The notes beneath the pieces were generated by a model, which saw nothing but the letters and a program-made list of their open reading frames with translations, searched no databases and was not told the DNA's origin. From Gemmata sp. (lineage in GTDB: Bacteria; Planctomycetota; Planctomycetia; Gemmatales; Gemmataceae), in assembly GCA_025055115.1 (NCBI GenBank), contig JANWYJ010000099.1, forward strand, positions 1-41,697: DNA of 41,697 nucleotides, given 5' to 3'. This document shows positions 10,476-33,330 of this stretch, one piece after another; within the stretch, counting starts at the first letter, position 1, and every line of letters starts with the position of its first letter. Both the position numbers and the translations under genes were made by a program.

Positions 10476-10513
10476 TTTCTCCGCAAATGAATGCGTTTCT
10501 CCGCAAATGAATG
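10476..10513. repeat. 18-bp direct repeat between glyS and the patatin gene
   Basis: TTTCTCCGCAAATGAATG occurs at 10476-10493 and 10496-10513 (period 20 bp). The second copy ends exactly where the TTGACA promoter element of the patatin gene begins at 10514. Confidence 0.88.
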
Positions 10514-14464: not shown

Positions 14465-16447
14465 GTGTCATCGCTCAGCGGACTGAACTCCAACGGTTTG
14501 GCTTTCAGCGGCTTGGCCACCGGCATCAATACCGACACGCTCATTGCCGGTTTGACGAAAATCAACCAGCAGCGCATCGACGCGCTCAAAGCCCGCGAAT
14601 CGACACTGCAAGCCCGGCAGTCTGCGTTTGCGACGTTGCAAGGGCGAGTGTTCGATTTGCAATCGAAGGCCGCGGCCCTGGCGCGTTCGGTGGGCGGTGC
14701 TTTTGACGCCCGGCAAGCGACCAGCTCGGATACCGCCGCACTCACGGCTGTCGCCGGCAGCGCGGCTTTACCCGGTACCTACAACCTCACCGTCACGGCG
14801 CTGGCCCAAGCTCATCAATTGGCCTCCGACGGTTACGCCGACATCAACACCCCAATCAAGCAAGGGACGCTGACGCTTCAGGTCGGCTCTGGACCAGCCA
14901 CGACCATCACGATCGACTCACAAAATAACACCCTGCAAGGCCTGGTGAATGCGATCAATGCGAGTGCCGCAGGTGTACGGGCAGCCATTATCAACGATGG
15001 CTCGGATTCGCCTTATCGCGTTGTCCTGACTTCGACTCGCACTGGTGCTGCGAATACCATCCAAGTGACGGCGAACCTGACAAGCGGTTCCGGTGCCGAC
15101 TTCGACCCCGCCGCCACAACTTTGCAAGCGGCGAGTGATGCCGAAGTTCGCTTCGGCAGTGGACCTAGCGCCCTGGTGGTGACCAGCTCGACCAATCAGT
15201 TCAACAATCTCATCCCCGGCGTCAGTTTGAATGTACTTCGGGCGGATGCGAGCAAACCGATCACGCTCACAGTCGCCGCGGATACAGCCGCAGCGACCCG
15301 AGCTGTGCAGGAATTCGTCAACTCGTACAACGCCGTCATCGACTTTGTGGCACAGCAATCCACCTATGACCCGAAGACGCAAACTGGCGGGCTTCTTTTG
15401 GGCAACCGCGACGCCCGGCAACTGACCAGTGAAATCGCCGCCGCGTTGGTTGTCGCCGTGCCGGGGCTGAATTCAGCGGCCAACCGACTTTCCAGTGTGG
15501 GTATCTCCTTCGACAACCGCGGCCGGTTAGTTCTCGATTCGGCCAAGCTCGATCGGGCACTCAAGGGCGAAACCGGAGCGAGCATCGCCGATCTGAAACG
15601 GTTGTTCGGCCTGACGGGGGTTGTTTCCAATAACCCCGGTATCGAGTTTGTGCTGGGAACCGACAAAACCAAACCGACCGGGAACACCCCTTATGAAGTT
15701 CACATCACCGCACCGGCTACTCGGGCTACGGTCACGGCGACGAGTCCGCCCCTGTTGATTTGGCCCCCGAACGCCTCACTGATGCTACGGCTGAACAACA
15801 TTGCGGGCGAAGTGACCATTCCCACGGGGGTTTACACTCCCGATGAACTTGTCGCCACCTTGCAACGGCGCATCAATGAAACACCGGCGTTTGCCGGCAA
15901 CTCGGTGACGGTGAATTTGGATAGTCTCGGTCGTCTGCAGATTACCTCCCAACGGTTTGGTTCATCCTCGCGCGTGGAGATCACGGGAGGTTCTGCGGCG
16001 GCTGGTTTGGGCTTCACCGGCACAGAGAGCGCCACGGGTACGGATGTCGAAGGCTACTTCGTGGTCAATGGCCAAAACGAGGCCGCAACTGGTAATGGTC
16101 AGTTGCTGCGCGGCAATGCTGGCAATCCCAATACCGAGGGGTTGCAAGTGCGTTCCACACTCACGGCACCAGGCAGCGCGGAATTAACCGTTACGCAAGG
16201 GTTAGCCAGCCGATTGAACCAGGTTCTCAACAAGTATCTCGATACCGGTCGTGGGCGTTTCCGCGCGATCCGTGATGGCTTCCAACGCTCGATCGACGAA
16301 ATCGGGCAAACCATCAGCCGACAGAACGACATGCTCTCCCGGCGCACTGAAGAACTGCTGCGGCAGTTCGCAGCCATGGAATCCGCCGTCAATAGTCTCC
16401 GCGGACTCCAAACCCAACTGAGCTCTCTCATTCAACGTCGTAACTAA
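14465..16447 (+). CDS. fliD: Flagellar hook-associated protein 2 (filament cap)
   Basis: The 660-residue protein caps the growing filament and guides flagellin insertion. The N-terminal FliD region (FSGLATGINTDTLIAGLTKINQQRIDALKARES) and the C-terminal FliD region (residues about 560-660, with RLNQVLNKYLDTGRGRF and IDEIGQTISRQNDMLSRR) are clear. Long strand-rich inserts in the middle make it larger than enteric FliD (about 470 residues). The start is GTG, preceded by GAAGG about 8 bases upstream; no ATG fits. It lies 112 bp after fliC across a terminator and 15 bp before fliS, so fliD-fliS probably form one unit. Confidence 0.94.
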   Translation: MSSLSGLNSNGLAFSGLATGINTDTLIAGLTKINQQRIDALKARESTLQARQSAFATLQGRVFDLQSKAAALARSVGGAFDARQATSSDTAALTAVAGSAALPGTYNLTVTALAQAHQLASDGYADINTPIKQGTLTLQVGSGPATTITIDSQNNTLQGLVNAINASAAGVRAAIINDGSDSPYRVVLTSTRTGAANTIQVTANLTSGSGADFDPAATTLQAASDAEVRFGSGPSALVVTSSTNQFNNLIPGVSLNVLRADASKPITLTVAADTAAATRAVQEFVNSYNAVIDFVAQQSTYDPKTQTGGLLLGNRDARQLTSEIAAALVVAVPGLNSAANRLSSVGISFDNRGRLVLDSAKLDRALKGETGASIADLKRLFGLTGVVSNNPGIEFVLGTDKTKPTGNTPYEVHITAPATRATVTATSPPLLIWPPNASLMLRLNNIAGEVTIPTGVYTPDELVATLQRRINETPAFAGNSVTVNLDSLGRLQITSQRFGSSSRVEITGGSAAAGLGFTGTESATGTDVEGYFVVNGQNEAATGNGQLLRGNAGNPNTEGLQVRSTLTAPGSAELTVTQGLASRLNQVLNKYLDTGRGRFRAIRDGFQRSIDEIGQTISRQNDMLSRRTEELLRQFAAMESAVNSLRGLQTQLSSLIQRRN

Positions 16448-16890: not shown

Positions 16891-17044
16891 TTGGCCACCA
16901 AGTTCCCTTGGCCACCAAGTTCCGCCTCTTTGGGTTTTGCCGAAGTGCTTTGATCACAACAAACAGCGTTGCGTCTTTCTCTGTCGTTGCCACCAAGTTT
17001 GTTTGTCGTTGCCACCAAGTTCCGCGTCTTCGGGTTTTGCCGAA
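16891..17044. repeat. Nested direct repeats in the fliS-flgF spacer
   Basis: The core GCCACCAAGTT occurs four times: 16894-16904, 16911-16921, 16989-16999 and 17011-17021. Three duplication layers are visible. A 16-bp unit recurs at 16891-16906 and 16908-16923 (period 17). An 18-bp unit recurs at 16982-16999 and 17004-17021 (period 22). A 34-bp unit recurs at 16911-16944 and 17011-17044 (period exactly 100, two mismatches). The repeats start six bases after the fliS stop. No gene fits in this 229-bp gap. Confidence 0.9.
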
Positions 17045-21829: not shown

Positions 21830-22286
21830 GGAAACGCTTCTTCGGGAAGCGTTGGCCATCACGAAGACCTTGTACACGGCCCTGGTCGCGGGGGACCTCG
21901 GCTCAGCCCAAAATTCTTCACTGCGGCAAGAAACGCTGGCTGCGGCGTTGCAGGAGGCGGCCCATCGGCGTGCAGAAGCCGCGGTTGCCCTGGCTCGTGA
22001 GGTGGGCTTCACGGGAAGCGCCCTCACACTGTCGGCATTGGCCGCCCGGTTGCCGGAGCCGCTGGCTACGGAAGTGATCATGGCCCGCGACCGGCTCGCC
22101 GTGCTGACAGCCGAACTGACGGTTGCGCAAACGCGCAATGCAAATTTGCTCCATCATCTTCGATCATATCTCCGCGGAGTCTTGTCCGACGCCGACTCGG
22201 ACGTTCCAGTACGGTATGGGCCTTCGGGCGCACGCATCGATGCACCAGTGAGTCTTTCCACCCTCCGTGAACGAGCGACCGCATGA
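21783..22286 (+). CDS. flgN: FlgN-like flagellar export chaperone
   Basis: The 167-residue, mostly helical, Ala/Leu-rich protein fits FlgN, the chaperone of the junction proteins FlgK and FlgL, which are encoded next. Helices contain LLREALAITKTLYTALVAGDL, LRQETLAAALQEAAHRRAEAAVAL and RDRLAVLTAELTVAQTRNANLLHHLRSYL, the last being the usual substrate-binding region. Sequence conservation in this family is low, so the call rests largely on position, size and heptad-like pattern. It overlaps flgJ by 47 bp and flgK by four bp (ATGA), so all three are likely coupled. Confidence 0.78.
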   Translation: MPTLLVQSFLQHLQHEETLLREALAITKTLYTALVAGDLGSAQNSSLRQETLAAALQEAAHRRAEAAVALAREVGFTGSALTLSALAARLPEPLATEVIMARDRLAVLTAELTVAQTRNANLLHHLRSYLRGVLSDADSDVPVRYGPSGARIDAPVSLSTLRERATA

Positions 22287-23938
22287 ATGCGTTGCAAATT
22301 GGGACTTCGGCGATTGCCGCTGGTCAGCGGGGTCTGGATTTGGTCGGGCAAAACCTCGCCAATGCCGCGACCCCCGGGTATCATCGACAGGCCGTCAATC
22401 TCGTCAGTCGGGTCACGGGCGATGTTTATGGAACGGGGGTGGCGGTCGCCAGTATTACCCGTTTCACGGCCCAAGCGGTGCGAACAGCCATCCTTAGCAA
22501 CAACTCCGCCCAAGCGGCGTTTTCCACTCGGCTCGACATTCGCCGCCAAATCGAACGCGCGCTGGGCACCACAGATGGCGGTATTGCCGATCAGCTTAAC
22601 GACTTCTTCAACCGAATCGAACAACTTAGCAGCCGACCCGACGACACCGCCGCCCGTCGCCCGCTGATCGCCACCGCGGTGGAGCTGGCCCGGCAGTTCA
22701 ATGCGGCCGCCACCGATATCGACCGGCTTCGTAACACCATCAGCGACCAAATTCCCCAAGCTGTGGAACAATTGAACGATTGGGCCAGCCGCATCGCAGA
22801 CCTCAATATTCGGATTTCCATCCGCGAAAAAACCGGCGATCAAGCCAACGACCTCCGCGATCAACGGGATCAACTGATTCATGACCTGGCCAAACTTGTG
22901 GACATTAAAACCGTGGACCAACCCTACGGTGTGGTGAATGTGATGGCCGCGGGGGCGGCCATCGTCGTGGGGGAATTCGCCAATCGCTTTGAAGTCAATA
23001 CCGATCCGCAGGGGAATTGGATCATTACACCCGTGGGCAGTACGCAATCCGTCACGTTCCAATCGGGGCGTTTGGGCGCATTATTGCAAGAACATAACAC
23101 GGAAATCCCCGCCACCCGGTCCCGTTTGGATGCTCTTGTCAGCGCCTTGGTCAACCAGGTGAACGCCGTGCACGCCACGGGGGTGCCGCTGAGTGGCCCA
23201 TGGACCACAACCACCGGTACGGTCAGTGCCCTGTCGGCCACGGTGCCGTTGGATGCTGCTGGTTTGCCATTTCCGATTCAAACGGGGCACTTGACCATCA
23301 GCGTGACCGATACATCGACCAATATCCGCACCAGCACGACGATTCCGATTGATCCCGCCACCCAAAGCCTCAACGATCTCGCAACCGCACTCAGCAGTAT
23401 TCCGGGGTTGACGGCGAGCGTTCATACCCCGGCCAATACGCTACAAGTCGATGCCCTGCCAGGGTTTGCGTTCGATTTTGCCGCTGCCAATGCCGATACC
23501 GCCGGTCTTCTGCCGGCGCTGGGCATCAACGGGTTTTTTCTTGGTTCAACGGCAGCGGGTATTCGCGTGCGTTCCGAGATTGTCGCCAATCCCAACCTTC
23601 TCGCTGCAGGCACAACGCCTCAACCGGGTGATAGCACCAACTTGCAGCGATGGGCTGCGCTGCGCGATGTGGCGGTGTTTGGGAATCGGACCTTTCAGGG
23701 AGAATACGCCGACCAAGCCGCGGCGGTGGGGGCCGACGTGCAATCCCTGGCCGATCGTCAGACCGCCCAGACGAACCTCATGCAGGCGCTATCAGCCCAG
23801 GAGCAAGCGGTCATTGGTGTGGATATGAACGAAGAGTTGGTCCGCTTGCTCGATTTCCAGCGGATGGTGCAGAGCGCGTCGCGGTACCTGTCGGTGGTGA
23901 ATTCGGCTCTCGATGAGATTATCGACATCCTGCGCTAG
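22283..23938 (+). CDS. flgK: Flagellar hook-associated protein 1
   Basis: The 551-residue protein forms the first hook-filament junction layer. The N-terminus LQIGTSAIAAGQRGLDLVGQNLANAATPGYHRQ is the FlgK variant of the axial-protein signature. A long coiled-coil region follows (ARQFNAAATDIDRLRNTISDQI, then the FlgK-typical NDLRDQRDQLIHDLAKLVDI), and the C-terminus GVDMNEELVRLLDFQRMVQSASRYLSVVNSALDEII is characteristic. Length equals enteric FlgK (about 547). The last codons and stop are inside a 37-bp unit that is repeated in the spacer before flgL. Confidence 0.96.
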   Translation: MNALQIGTSAIAAGQRGLDLVGQNLANAATPGYHRQAVNLVSRVTGDVYGTGVAVASITRFTAQAVRTAILSNNSAQAAFSTRLDIRRQIERALGTTDGGIADQLNDFFNRIEQLSSRPDDTAARRPLIATAVELARQFNAAATDIDRLRNTISDQIPQAVEQLNDWASRIADLNIRISIREKTGDQANDLRDQRDQLIHDLAKLVDIKTVDQPYGVVNVMAAGAAIVVGEFANRFEVNTDPQGNWIITPVGSTQSVTFQSGRLGALLQEHNTEIPATRSRLDALVSALVNQVNAVHATGVPLSGPWTTTTGTVSALSATVPLDAAGLPFPIQTGHLTISVTDTSTNIRTSTTIPIDPATQSLNDLATALSSIPGLTASVHTPANTLQVDALPGFAFDFAAANADTAGLLPALGINGFFLGSTAAGIRVRSEIVANPNLLAAGTTPQPGDSTNLQRWAALRDVAVFGNRTFQGEYADQAAAVGADVQSLADRQTAQTNLMQALSAQEQAVIGVDMNEELVRLLDFQRMVQSASRYLSVVNSALDEIIDILR

Positions 23939-24025
23939 CCGGATGATTCTCACTACCGCGACCTCGGATTATACGACATCAAGGGTGTGATTATCGACAT
24001 CCGGCGTTTGCCGGATGATTCTCAC
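23917..24025. repeat. 37-bp direct repeat carrying the flgK stop codon
   Basis: Copy 1 (23917-23953) covers the last codons and TAG stop of flgK plus 15 bases. Copy 2 (23989-24025) matches 34 of 37 bases with a period of 72 bp, and the TAG has become TTG. A partial third copy of the first half (GATTATACGACATC) begins near 23968. Copy 2 ends 15 bp before the flgL ATG. Confidence 0.9.
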
Positions 24026-24040
24026 GGTGGTTGTTGTATT

Positions 24041-24970
24041 ATGCGTGTCACGAATCAAACTCAAATCAACAACGCCATTGCCTACATGCAGACCCGCAGC
24101 CAAGACCTGGCCCGGTGGCAAGATCAGGTTTCGACGGGCCTGCGGGTGCGTGCTCCCTCCGATGATCCCGCGGCGTTTCCTGCTCTCCAGCAAGCCAAGT
24201 CGGCGTCGCAACGGCTGGAGGCGTACACGCAAACCATTGGCGATGCAACCGCGGTCCTCAATGTGAGTGTCAGTTCACTGCTCGATATGAACAGCCTGTT
24301 GGTGCGTGCTCGCGAAATTGCCCAGGAAGGGGCCGATTCGACGAGTTCCGACCCGGCAGTGCGCGAAGCCTTGGCGGTGGAACTCGATGGCTTGATCAAC
24401 CGGGCCTTGCAGATCGCCAATGGGCAACATGAGGGCAAACGCCTCTTCGGCGGAACCGCGCTGACCACTCCGCCGTTTCAAGTGGACACCACCGATGCCA
24501 ACGGCCGGCCACTGAGTATTGTTTACGTCGGTGCCACGGAGCGAGCACGAACAATCACCGGGCCGAATCAAACCACCGAGACCCGTTACGTTGGCGGCGA
24601 TGTGTTTCAACGCCCTGGGGCGGATGTCTTCCAAGCCCTCATCGCCTTGCGCGATGATTTGCGCAATACGACGTATAACGATGTTGATCGTTCTGCCGCC
24701 CTCAACCAGCGGATCGCCGACCTCGAAGCCGCCCGCGATGCCGTCGCAGATACGATCGGCGAGCAATCCTCCCATCTTGCGACACTCGACGCCTTTCTCA
24801 ATCTCACCACGGATGTCAAACTGCTCGCCGATCAGCGCGTCGGTGAACTCTCCGCAACCGACTATGCTGAAGCTGTGGTGAAACTGCGTGAAGCGGAAAC
24901 GGCCTTGCAAGCGATTTTCGCAGCCACGTCGCGGCTGCTGCAACCGGGCTTTCTCGACTTCATCCGCTAA
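24041..24970 (+). CDS. flgL: Flagellar hook-associated protein 3
   Basis: The 309-residue protein is the second junction layer between hook and filament. The N-terminus MRVTNQTQINNAIAYMQTRSQDLARWQDQVSTGLRVRAPSDDPAA is a flagellin-like coiled coil with the FlgL-typical SxGxRxxxPSDDPA motif. The C-terminus (DYAEAVVKLREAETALQAIFAATSRLLQPGFLDFIR) pairs with it. The ATG at 24041 is preferred over the in-frame GTG at 23987 because the upstream part is encoded by the 37-bp repeat and shares nothing with FlgL. No fliW or csrA follows, although these often do. Confidence 0.94.
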   Translation: MRVTNQTQINNAIAYMQTRSQDLARWQDQVSTGLRVRAPSDDPAAFPALQQAKSASQRLEAYTQTIGDATAVLNVSVSSLLDMNSLLVRAREIAQEGADSTSSDPAVREALAVELDGLINRALQIANGQHEGKRLFGGTALTTPPFQVDTTDANGRPLSIVYVGATERARTITGPNQTTETRYVGGDVFQRPGADVFQALIALRDDLRNTTYNDVDRSAALNQRIADLEAARDAVADTIGEQSSHLATLDAFLNLTTDVKLLADQRVGELSATDYAEAVVKLREAETALQAIFAATSRLLQPGFLDFIR

Positions 24971-24979
24971 CGGACGATC

Positions 24980-25078
24980 GCTGCTATTTCTCGGGCAGCC
25001 TCCGGCCACTGCCGCCGACGCGAACCGTATCAGTGAAATTGCATGGTCAAGCTGCTATTTCTCGGGCAGCCTCCGGCC
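24980..25078. repeat. 28-bp direct repeat with internal hairpin after flgL
   Basis: A 28-bp unit at 24980-25007 recurs identically at 25051-25078 (period 71). Each copy can fold as GCTGC...GCAGC with a 10-nt loop. Copy 1 begins nine bases after the flgL stop; each hairpin could act as a 3' end structure. Confidence 0.9.
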
Positions 25079-25159: not shown

Positions 25160-25209
25160 CACTATCTCACTATTCCGATACCTCCACTATCTCACTATTC
25201 CGATACCTC
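25160..25209. repeat. Perfect 25-bp tandem repeat
   Basis: A 25-bp unit runs 25160-25184 and 25185-25209 without mismatch or gap, then begins a third time for five bases. It is more AT-rich than its surroundings. Confidence 0.92.
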
Positions 25210-25233
25210 CACTCCATGACGCGATACCGTGTT

Positions 25234-25295
25234 CCGATACCCTCACGCGATGACGCCATAACTTGTCCCGATACCCTCACGCGATGACGCCATAA
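25234..25295. repeat. 28-bp direct repeat with 34-bp period
   Basis: A 28-bp unit at 25234-25261 recurs identically at 25268-25295. It shares the word CCGATACC with the tandem repeat just upstream, so the two sets may have a common origin. Confidence 0.9.
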
Positions 25296-30603: not shown

Positions 30604-33270
30604 ATGAGCGCAAAGTACGTCTATTCGTTTGGTGGTAAAACGGCCGACGGTGATGGCTCGATGAAGGAGCTTTTGGGTGGAAAAGGTGCCAATTTGGCCG
30701 AGATGTGCAAAATTGGCATTCCCGTGCCCCCCGGTTTTACCATCACCACCGAAGTTTGTGCCGCATACTACGAACAGGGCCGAAAAATTCCTGAGGCCGT
30801 TCTTCCCCAAATTGATGAGGCGCTCAAGAAGGTGGAAGAGCTGGTCGGTAAAAAATTCGGCGACCCCAACGACCCCCTGTTGGTCAGCGTTCGCTCCGGG
30901 GCCGCTTTGTCCATGCCGGGGATGATGAACACCATTCTCAACCTCGGCCTCACCGATGCCAGCGTGGAGGGCTTGGCGAAAAAGACCAACAATGTCCGCT
31001 TTGCTTACGACAGCTACCGCCGGCTCATCGACATGTTCGGTTCCACGGCCATGGGCCTGGACCACGATCATTTCGAGCACGAACTCCACTCGATGAAAGT
31101 CGCCAAAGGGGTCAAACTCGACACCGACCTGACCGCCGACGACCTCAAAGAACTCGTTCAACGCTACAAAGCCGTTTACAAAAAGGATGTCGGTGACGAT
31201 TTCCCCCAAGACCCGAAAAAGCAATTGATGCTGGCCATCAATGCCGTTTTCAACTCGTGGATGGGCCATAAAGCGGTGGAGTATCGGCGGATCGAGCGCA
31301 TCACCGGCTTGAAGGGAACGGCCGTCAACGTGCAGGCGATGGTCTTTGGCAACATGGGCAATACTTCGGGCACCGGTGTGGCCTTCACCCGCGACCCCAA
31401 TACTGGCGAGAACGTCTTTTACGGCGATTATCTCATCAATGCCCAGGGGGAAGACGTGGTGGCGGGCATTCGTACCCCCGAACCGATCTCACAGCTAGAG
31501 CAGGAGATGCCGGAGGTCTATCGGCAACTGGTGCAGATTCGCTCGGTTCTCGAAAAGCACTACAAAGAGATGCAAGACATCGAATTCACGGTGCAAGAAG
31601 GGGTGCTGTACATGCTGCAAACCCGCACCGGCAAGCGCACTGGGACCGCCGCGGTTCGCATCGCCGTGGACATGGTCCGGGAAGGATTGATCGATGAAGC
31701 CACGGCCGTCAAGCGGGTCAATCCGGAAAGCCTCAACCACCTGTTGCAACCGCAACTCGACCCCAAGGCGAAGGAAAAACCGGTGGCGCAAGGCATTGCG
31801 GCTAGCCCCGGAGCCGCCAGCGGCAAAGTGCTCCTGTCCGCCGAAGCGGTGGTGGCCCACGCGGAAAAATTCCCCCACGACCCCATCATTCTTGTGCGCA
31901 AAGAAACCTCGCCGGAAGATGTGGCCGGGATGCACCTGGCCAAAGGCATCCTCACCTCCACCGGGGGCAAAGCCAGCCACGCGGCCGTGGTCGCCCGCGG
32001 ATGGGGCAAACCGTGTGTCGTGGGCTGCGAAGCCATCAAAATCGACGAAGCCCATCAGCAAATCACCATTGCCGGCCATGTTGTGAAAGCCGGCGAATTC
32101 GTCACCATCAACGGCACAACCGGTGACGTCATCATCGGCCAGGTGCCCACCGTGCCGCCATCGATGACCGGCGACTTCGCCACCCTCATGCAATGGGCCG
32201 ACAAGTACCGCCGGTTGAAGATTCGGACCAATGCCGATTCCCCCGCCGATGCCCTGAAAGCCCGCGAATTTGGGGCCGAAGGTATTGGCTTGTGCCGCAC
32301 TGAACACATGTTCTTCGGCAAAGACCGCATCGCCGCCGTGCGCGAAATGATCCTCGCCACCACGGAAGAGGGACGCAAGAAAGCCCTGGCCAAGATCGAA
32401 CCCTACCAAAAACAAGACTTCGTCGGCATCTTTGAAGCGATGGATGGCTTTCCCGTCACCATTCGCTTGCTCGACCCTCCGCTGCACGAATTTTTGCCCC
32501 AACGCGACAACGAAAAGGGCGCTCAGGAAGTAGCTGAACAAATCGGTACCACCGTGGAAAAAGTCTTCGAGCGAGTCGATGAACTGCACGAATTCAACCC
32601 CATGATGGGTTTCCGCGGCTGCCGCTTGCCGATCGTCTATCCCGAAATCGGCGATATGCAAGTGCGGGCGATCATCGAAGCGGCCATCGAAGTCAAGAAG
32701 AAGGGCAAAAGCGTTCTGCCCGAAATTATGATTCCTCTGGTGGGTACGGTCGAAGAACTCATCTTCCTCAAAAAACGGGCCATCGCGGTGGCCGAAGAAT
32801 GTATGAAGAAGGCCGGGATCACCGTCGAATACCAAATCGGTACGATGATCGAGCTGCCACGGGCGGCACTGACGGCCGATGAAATCGCCACCGAGGCCGA
32901 GTTCTTCAGCTTCGGCACCAACGACCTGACCCAAATGACCTTCGGCTTCAGCCGCGACGACATCAAAGGCTTTATGCCCACCTATCTCAAAGAGAAGATT
33001 CTCCCCATCGATCCGTTCCAATCGATCGACCAAAAAGGCGTCGGCAAGTTGATCGACATGGGCATTCGCTTGGGGCGTGAAAGTCGCAAGTCGAAGCACA
33101 ATCAGCACTTGAAAGTCGGCATCTGCGGCGAACACGGCGGCGACCCGGAGAGCGTGATCTTCTGCCACAAAGTCGGCATGGATTATGTGAGCTGCTCACC
33201 ATTCCGCGTTCCGATTGCCCGCCTCGCCGCCGCCCAAGCCGCCTTAGGAGAAACCGTTCGCGATAAGTAA
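30604..33270 (+). CDS. ppdK: Pyruvate, phosphate dikinase
   Basis: The 888-residue enzyme interconverts pyruvate, ATP and phosphate with phosphoenolpyruvate, AMP and pyrophosphate, serving glycolysis or gluconeogenesis. The ATP-grasp domain starts with [25 protein letters not shown], the swivelling phospho-His domain has [21 protein letters not shown] (catalytic His459), and the C-terminal barrel has [15 protein letters not shown] and the metal/PEP site [19 protein letters not shown]. Length is standard (about 870-890). No regulatory protein gene is adjacent. The last two codons and stop belong to a perfect tandem repeat, and hairpins follow. Confidence 0.98.
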
Positions 33271-33313
33271 TCCGATCTGCCCATCCGGATAAGTAATCCG
33301 ATCTGCCCATCCG
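33262..33313. repeat. Perfect 26-bp tandem repeat including the ppdK stop codon
   Basis: A 26-bp unit at 33262-33287 is followed without gap by an identical copy at 33288-33313. The first nine bases of copy 1 encode the last two residues and the TAA stop of ppdK, so a second in-register stop lies in the trailer. Confidence 0.93.
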
Positions 33314-33330
33314 GAAAGCTCCGTTGGCCA

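Follow-up and report, generated by a model that had tools for sequence, protein, structure and literature searches.

The 3' end of flgK in this Gemmata genome is duplicated in the spacer that precedes flgL, and the duplication is very probably a target-site duplication produced by off-target CRISPR adaptation, a reading in which we infer the role of Cas1-Cas2 from the sequence. The integration was perhaps carried out by a lineage-specific Cas2-Cas1 module beside which no effector is seen. The observations that bear directly on this reading are the geometry of the duplication, its recurrence across the quarter of the genome that was sampled, a most frequent copy length equal to that of a true CRISPR repeat and an insert length close to that of a spacer. 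To these are added a CC dinucleotide at the target border, an excess of such structures over related genomes and the presence of two cas1-cas2 pairs, located on contigs C86 and C95. The material consists of one draft MAG (100 contigs), a quarter of which was sampled, and one close relative. Coordinates without a prefix refer to the window, the whole stretch of 41,697 nucleotides that was analysed, and a slash within a motif marks the border of a target or repeat.

The flgK-flgL junction

The features of the junction are the following:

22283..23938, plus strand: flgK, an open reading frame (NCBIfam TIGR02492, flgK_ends, 268 bits) of which copy 1 takes in the 3' end and the stop
23917..23953, plus strand: first 37-nt copy of the duplicated target (copy 1), holding the last flgK codons, the TAG stop and 15 spacer nt
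23954..23988, no strand assigned: insert of 35 nt, spacer-like, between the two copies
23989..24025, plus strand: second 37-nt copy of the duplicated target (copy 2), with the copied stop decayed to TTG
24026..24027, minus strand: border dinucleotide, GG on the plus strand and hence CC/GTGAG on the minus strand, reading into the target
24041..24970, plus strand: flgL, an open reading frame (NCBIfam TIGR02550, flagell_flgL, 167 bits)

The direct copies at 23917-23953 and 23989-24025 agree in 34 of 37 bases (36 of 40 when stretched 3 nt leftward) and lie 72 nt apart, start to start, in a repeat-insert-repeat layout of 37/35/37 nt. The number of such copies expected by chance was 0.00 in 100 dinucleotide-preserving shuffles of the window, and the duplication of the flgK end, stop included, described by an earlier sequence-only reading is therefore genuine. 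All three differences between the copies affect what was once coding sequence (CTG to CGG, CGC to CGT and TAG to TTG), the stop TAG at 23936-23938 in copy 1 corresponding to TTG at 24008-24010 in copy 2, and 16 nt starting at GCCGGATG are equal in both. Between copy 2 and the flgL ATG at 24041 lie 15 nt; this leader (24026-24040) is intact, and its untouched 15 nt include a GGTGGTT motif common to the sister genome G017, which also shares the flgK part of copy 1. The flgL frame is open upstream up to the flgK TAG. In length, the 37-nt target equals the CRISPR repeat on contig C95, and the 35-nt insert compares with 36 nt for the true spacer there.

This structure would arise if a fragment of about 35 nt, once captured, were joined by a Cas1-Cas2 integrase to both strands of the 37-bp stretch across the flgK stop and gap filling or repair then yielded the second 37-nt copy, in the order target-insert-target; in its general form, the model has captured fragments of about 36 nt attached to the two opposite strands at targets of some 37 bp. 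The first attack may have occurred at the flgL-proximal border, on the minus strand at CC/GTGAG, a strand order that we infer. Fragment joining and gap repair are the ordinary chemistry of CRISPR adaptation, which here would have acted at the wrong address. The stop codon would have been copied because the target straddled it, and both genes would have remained intact because copy 1 still served as the end of flgK and the leader of flgL stayed downstream of copy 2, which would then be left to drift. The scar is probably near-neutral, presumably also for flagellar expression.

A partial third copy between the other two had been taken as a sign of repeated duplication. This element (GATTATaCGACATC, 23967-23980) lies wholly inside the insert at 23954-23988 and is thus reassigned to the inserted DNA. 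Its 13-base resemblance to the target is equalled in score by 0.17% of mismatched insert/target pairs, and inserts do not resemble their own targets over 80 sites (the score averages 5.06, and 5.27 in mismatched pairs), a score of at least 9 being reached at 2 of the 80 with 0.76 expected. An origin of the insert as a copy of the local target finds no support over these sites in the score comparison, and the likeness of GATTATaCGACATC to the target is probably coincidental. Pieces of 24 nt from the insert have no second place in the genome with up to three mismatches, and no exact match in viral contigs. The locus was also considered as a functional CRISPR array and rejected, given that its repeat has no other copy in the genome and that it holds one insert only; a transposon, dispersed repeat or REP element was discarded after a genome pattern search (28 nt, up to three mismatches) that returned only the two copies.

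The search for FlgL covered 59 genomes, this one included, and 30 matched; a single one is close, G017, with a FlgL 90% identical. Its flgK-flgL spacer is 47 nt long and lacks the duplication, which bears out the look of a lineage-specific scar, and the other, more distant members of the genus have different spacers. The sequence-only reading had held that the same copies, if kept in relatives since a deep split, would argue for function: they are absent from G017, an answer that extends to one sister. Removal of one copy and the insert leaves a spacer of 30 nt here and slightly improves the alignment with G017 (score 122.0, against 114.5), whose spacer differs by more than the duplication event and is too diverged to serve as a base-exact empty site. 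As far as the compared genomes show, the duplication appears to have arisen, or to have been kept, only in this lineage. Across the nine gaps between aligned blocks of the two genomes, six are longer here and three in G017. In another, distant member of the genus (G014, locus L012), much of the flgK-flgL spacer is filled by a near-perfect long inverted repeat, GTAGGGTGGGCCGAAGCCGGCGCTTCGCCGGCGAGTCCCACC and its complement.

Repeat-insert-repeat units across the genome

Short-range direct repeats number 89 in 257 kb of this genome (the window and 12 further stretches), while 180 kb of G017 contained 7 and a shuffled control with one plain shuffle per stretch contained none. Pairs at a distance of 66-80 nt were then counted in 1258 kb (1.26 Mb, 25.5% of the genome): 129 were detected, of which a true CRISPR at L108:19524 was dropped before fitting, leaving 128 units, a count that retains one possible remnant of a true array on contig C86 (L107:9531-9646). 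Simple scaling to the 4.93-Mb genome gives roughly 500. Each listed unit has its own repeat, so that the geometry is CRISPR-like and no repeat is shared. By gene calls from a codon-usage script, which are approximate, 96 of the 129 are intergenic, 27 lie at gene edges and 6 are coding. The coding units are in frame in four cases out of six, a small number, as would be expected if damaging ones had been lost.

The most frequent copy length is 37 nt (24 of 129), with a tail of shorter copies. The peak was first found in 25 units and recurs in later samples of 35 and 68. When the first 92 units are fitted one by one, 17 come out best at 37 and 12 at 36, the rest being spread over 21-47; if a single common length is imposed on these 92, the best fit is 35, and the many shorter units put 37 behind it by 51 log units. 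The value of 37 nt is therefore a mode and nearly an upper edge, not a constant. Units were taken as incompatible with 37 nt, and left out of the border and insert-length counts, if this length scored over 3 log units worse than the one that suited them best: this applies to 48 of the 128, and the remaining 80 are compatible with exactly 37 nt. The inserts of these 80 measure 36.7 +/- 2.15 nt. Unit distance is 73.4 +/- 2.7 nt (n = 128, mode 74), compared with 72.0 +/- 1.7 nt in true arrays of the genus (seven arrays, n = 65 intervals). The distance stays near 73 whatever the copy length, some units having shorter perfect cores, and simple integration gives no account of a constant distance with shorter copies. 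Indels and mismatches near one end can explain some of the short copies and not others.

The copies are identical in 46 of the 129 pairs (true CRISPR included), for which reason some scars are perhaps fresh. At L190:10719, three copies and two inserts follow one another as 38/35/38/36/38, which looks like a proto-array grown by a second spacer; third copies with an identity of 0.73-0.85, for which there is no control set, are seen at nine other units. The window itself holds two further candidates:

24980..25078, no strand assigned: probable second scar just after flgL, 24980-25007 against 25051-25078, 28 of 28 nt equal, distance 71
16911..17044, no strand assigned: possible third scar, 16911-16944 against 17011-17044, distance 100

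The latter may be a unit enlarged by tandem duplication; the intergenic spacer there measures 149 nt here and 54 nt in G017. The C86 unit at L107:9531-9646, which lies 2 kb after the type I-G cas2, is a pair of 37-42-nt repeats whose copies differ, and is either a worn true array or another scar.

In equal samples of 580 kb, pairs at 66-80 nt number 61 here (true CRISPR included) and 5 in G017. Of the latter, one belongs to a true CRISPR array and two are isolated units, with a coding pair and a 17-nt match making up the rest. The isolated units of G017 are found at L126:2488-2599 and L136:17823-17936, with layouts of 38/36/38 and 38/38/38. Another 14 members of the genus show 5 pairs in 658 kb, and 15 other members together show 10, one of which belongs to a true array, in 1238 kb (1.24 Mb). 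No repeat-insert-repeat unit occurs in two short loci from G040 and G041, two genomes of the order, which at 3.5 kb each are too short for a count.

Target borders, candidate integrases and rival origins

Directly outside the target, reading inwards, 40 of the 80 37-compatible units have CC at one end or at both (background 0.160, p = 1.8e-12, a value uncorrected for the choice of the motif, which was picked after the base composition had been seen in the same units), and 8 of 80 have it at both, against a background of 0.0075. The signal is centred on the border and gone within about 2 bases of sliding, and it appears in each part of the sample (10/17, 8/19 and 22/44). CC is found on the insert side in 2 of 80, a low count partly forced by the way in which borders are drawn, and with unfitted borders the preference weakens to 46/128 outer against 13/128 inner. 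G is weakly raised at the first target base (58 of 158 ends, p = 0.022). Targets are no richer in hairpins than GC-matched spacers, and an integrase drawn to hairpins was rejected on these grounds. The inserts have a GC content of 0.543, against 0.581 for intergenic DNA, with 5 of 2000 random sets as low. Matches elsewhere in the sampled quarter were found for 14 of 129 inserts, 11 of them of 15-16 nt, compared with 143 of 864 control windows; those of the L059 and L178 inserts are attributed to larger duplicated or contig-end sequence. The L173 insert (approximately 14660-14695) has 26 exact nt in common with a distant place in the same genome, L174:17282-17307. Most inserts are thus without a known source, a convincing one being present in the sampled quarter for 1 of 129, and six patterns searched exactly in viral contigs (five inserts and one true C95 spacer) gave no match.

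The two cas1-cas2 pairs differ in type. That of C86 encodes a type I-G Cas4g/Cas1g fusion (NF049935, 685 bits) and Cas2, the I-G effector genes (PF09617) being on other contigs, C55 and C65. That of C95 encodes Cas2 (Pfam, 47.9 bits) and Cas1 (222.8 bits) next to a CRISPR with 37-nt repeats and a 36-nt spacer, which reaches the contig end, where GTCTC seems to be the start of a third repeat. PADLOC recognised no defence protein among the nine open reading frames upstream on C95, where only the sequence within the contig is visible, and 'effector-less' is used here in the sense that none is seen nearby. The C95 Cas1 has invariant residues E165, H230 and D242 in a three-sequence alignment (the glutamate of GFEG, a histidine, and an aspartate in the GRPSLACDLIE region), which we take to be catalytic. 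In the other 18 genomes of the genus it finds matches of only about 29-33% identity, its closer relatives (47-53%) being found in 5 of 102 genomes of the order (G096, G063, G059, G040 and G041). The leader of the C95 array ends in GGCC before the repeat GTCTCAGACG, giving the junction GGCC/GTCTC, to which the flgL-side border of the flgK-flgL target (CC/GTGAG, minus strand) bears a likeness of a few bases. Lineage restriction and the CC match point to C95 as the main actor. It is tentatively proposed, with prospects just short of even, that in this lineage a Cas2-Cas1 module with no effector in view acts as a genome-wide, CC-directed inserter of fragments, which would have left about 500 single-spacer proto-arrays, at least one with a second spacer, expanding intergenic spacers and rewriting gene ends. 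If so, arrays would be observed here in the course of their birth, and CRISPR adaptation would have an unrecognised role as a mutator.

That the type I-G Cas4g/Cas1g-Cas2, and not the C95 module, is mainly responsible is a variant of the same off-target integration and is possible, if rather unlikely. A Cas1 match is present in 15 of 19 genomes of the genus, and G017, which lacks a C95-type Cas1 and has only the Cas4g/Cas1g type, carries two or three similar units; C95 is therefore not the sole cause. However, relatives with cas1 are almost free of scars, so that cas1 is not sufficient, and the CC border fits the C95 leader, GGCC/G, whereas the four other genus arrays with a readable upstream side (L093, L098, L100 and L105) have CG before the G of the repeat (CG/G). 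The distribution of the C95 Cas1, with its distant matches elsewhere in the genus, likewise speaks against this variant.

Explanations that dispense with an integrase fare considerably worse. It is very unlikely that the flgK-flgL structure is an ordinary local duplication, in which slippage during replication, a template switch or end joining produced a tandem unit of 72 nt and its second half diverged. Short tandem duplications are frequent in this genome (231 per 1258 kb), flgK-flgL spacers vary in length and content among members of the genus, and copy length is variable, all of which would suit such an origin. But a 72-nt tandem should match over about 72 nt rather than over 37 with a sharp edge, and in the first 55 fitted units, selected for fitting 37, the fraction of matching bases drops from 0.82-1.00 inside the copies to at most 0.39 outside. 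Nor does local duplication predict a mode of copy length, 36-nt inserts or a CC border, and end joining by Ku is opposed by a search of the genus that detected no Ku gene in 19 of 19 genomes. Less likely still is a selected regulatory element, in which a hairpin in copy 2 would tune flgK-flgL translational coupling or flgL initiation. This copy contains a perfect 8-bp stem (23998-24017) of -15.0 kcal/mol, compared with -9.6 in copy 1, that ends 23 nt before the flgL ATG, and the 161-nt junction exceeds its shuffles somewhat in stability (z -1.72, 15 of 200 as stable); the 81-nt region, on the other hand, does not stand out from its shuffles (z -0.55), the element is absent from the sister G017, and the same geometry recurs elsewhere with other sequences. 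A role of this hairpin as a terminator was discarded, as a scan gave no terminator-like site. The idea that copying of a gene terminus was selected, or created a new leader, finds no indication, this being one of 128 sampled repeat-insert-repeat units, and the flgK-flgL repeat is not a gene terminus copied with a purpose. The least probable origin is an artefact of MAG assembly, with strain variants joined in tandem, as might be feared in a draft of 100 contigs: the copies often differ, a copy 2 without a stop is an unlikely flgK allele, coding units and tandem duplications keep the frame (4/6 and 25/32) as selection would demand, and a preference for CC borders is not expected from an assembler.

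Known off-target integration and other duplications

By the general view, spacers are integrated for the most part at the array itself. Off-target integration of spacers, giving rise to 'neo-CRISPR' loci, was reportedly described by Nivala, Shipman and Church in 2018 (Nat Microbiol 3:310), who are said to have found hundreds of sites in E. coli with Cas1-Cas2 overexpressed, and only several putative natural cases. That system reportedly resembles the present one in a fragment of spacer length placed outside the CRISPR locus, a duplication of repeat length and sites similar to the native junction, and differs from it in that an estimated 500 fixed scars of different ages would be found here in one natural genome. 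The phenomenon is already known, and such numbers in a single natural genome would be new in scale; a literature search, which had most subscription papers outside its reach, returned no natural genome-wide case of such numbers.

Stray integration is treated or cited, together with Nivala et al. 2018, in three further reports (PMC9456107, PMC11788318 and PMC11394691), and the same work is cited in PMC11687729. According to an in vitro study of Streptococcus thermophilus Cas1-Cas2 (PMC6895254), off-target sites resemble the leader-repeat junction over about 5 bp on each side; guanine is preferred there and the products are likely half-site, whereas a CC border and complete genomic units are seen here. 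For Sulfolobus islandicus, accessory control of Cas1 by Csa3a against stray integration is described (PMC9456107), integration out of the array being treated as an event that cells avoid; Cas1 is described there as binding stem-loops, while the targets here show no enrichment in hairpins. Ectopic acquisition of spacers in the CRISPR3 array of S. thermophilus (PMC7999890) likewise concerns a non-standard place, inside an existing array in that case and outside arrays in this one.

Estimated hundreds of stray integrations in one natural genome, some perhaps fresh and some worn, would show adaptation to be capable of serving as a steady mutator. The scars would offer a natural data set on the ruler length and target choice of the integrase, would make array birth testable through the comparison of strains, and would explain odd repeats at gene ends, such as that of flgK-flgL, without selection.

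A second class of duplications in this genome consists of pure tandem duplications, mostly of 15-46 nt (231 in the 1258 kb, against 13 in 580 kb of G017), from which some kind of broader genome instability is apparent. Their end signature differs from that of the units and is symmetric, with C at position -4 in 0.54 and T at +1 in 0.42 of the 56 cases whose match length equals the period, and in coding sequence 25 of 32 are in frame. Examples in the window are found at 70-119, 10476-10513 and 33262-33315, the last of which consists of 26-nt copies in tandem that lie across the end of the open reading frame at 30604-33270, with the stop duplicated. In the long spacer after flgL, two adjoining tandem arrays occupy 25160-25295, one of 25 nt repeated 2.2 times and one of 34 nt repeated 2.9 times.
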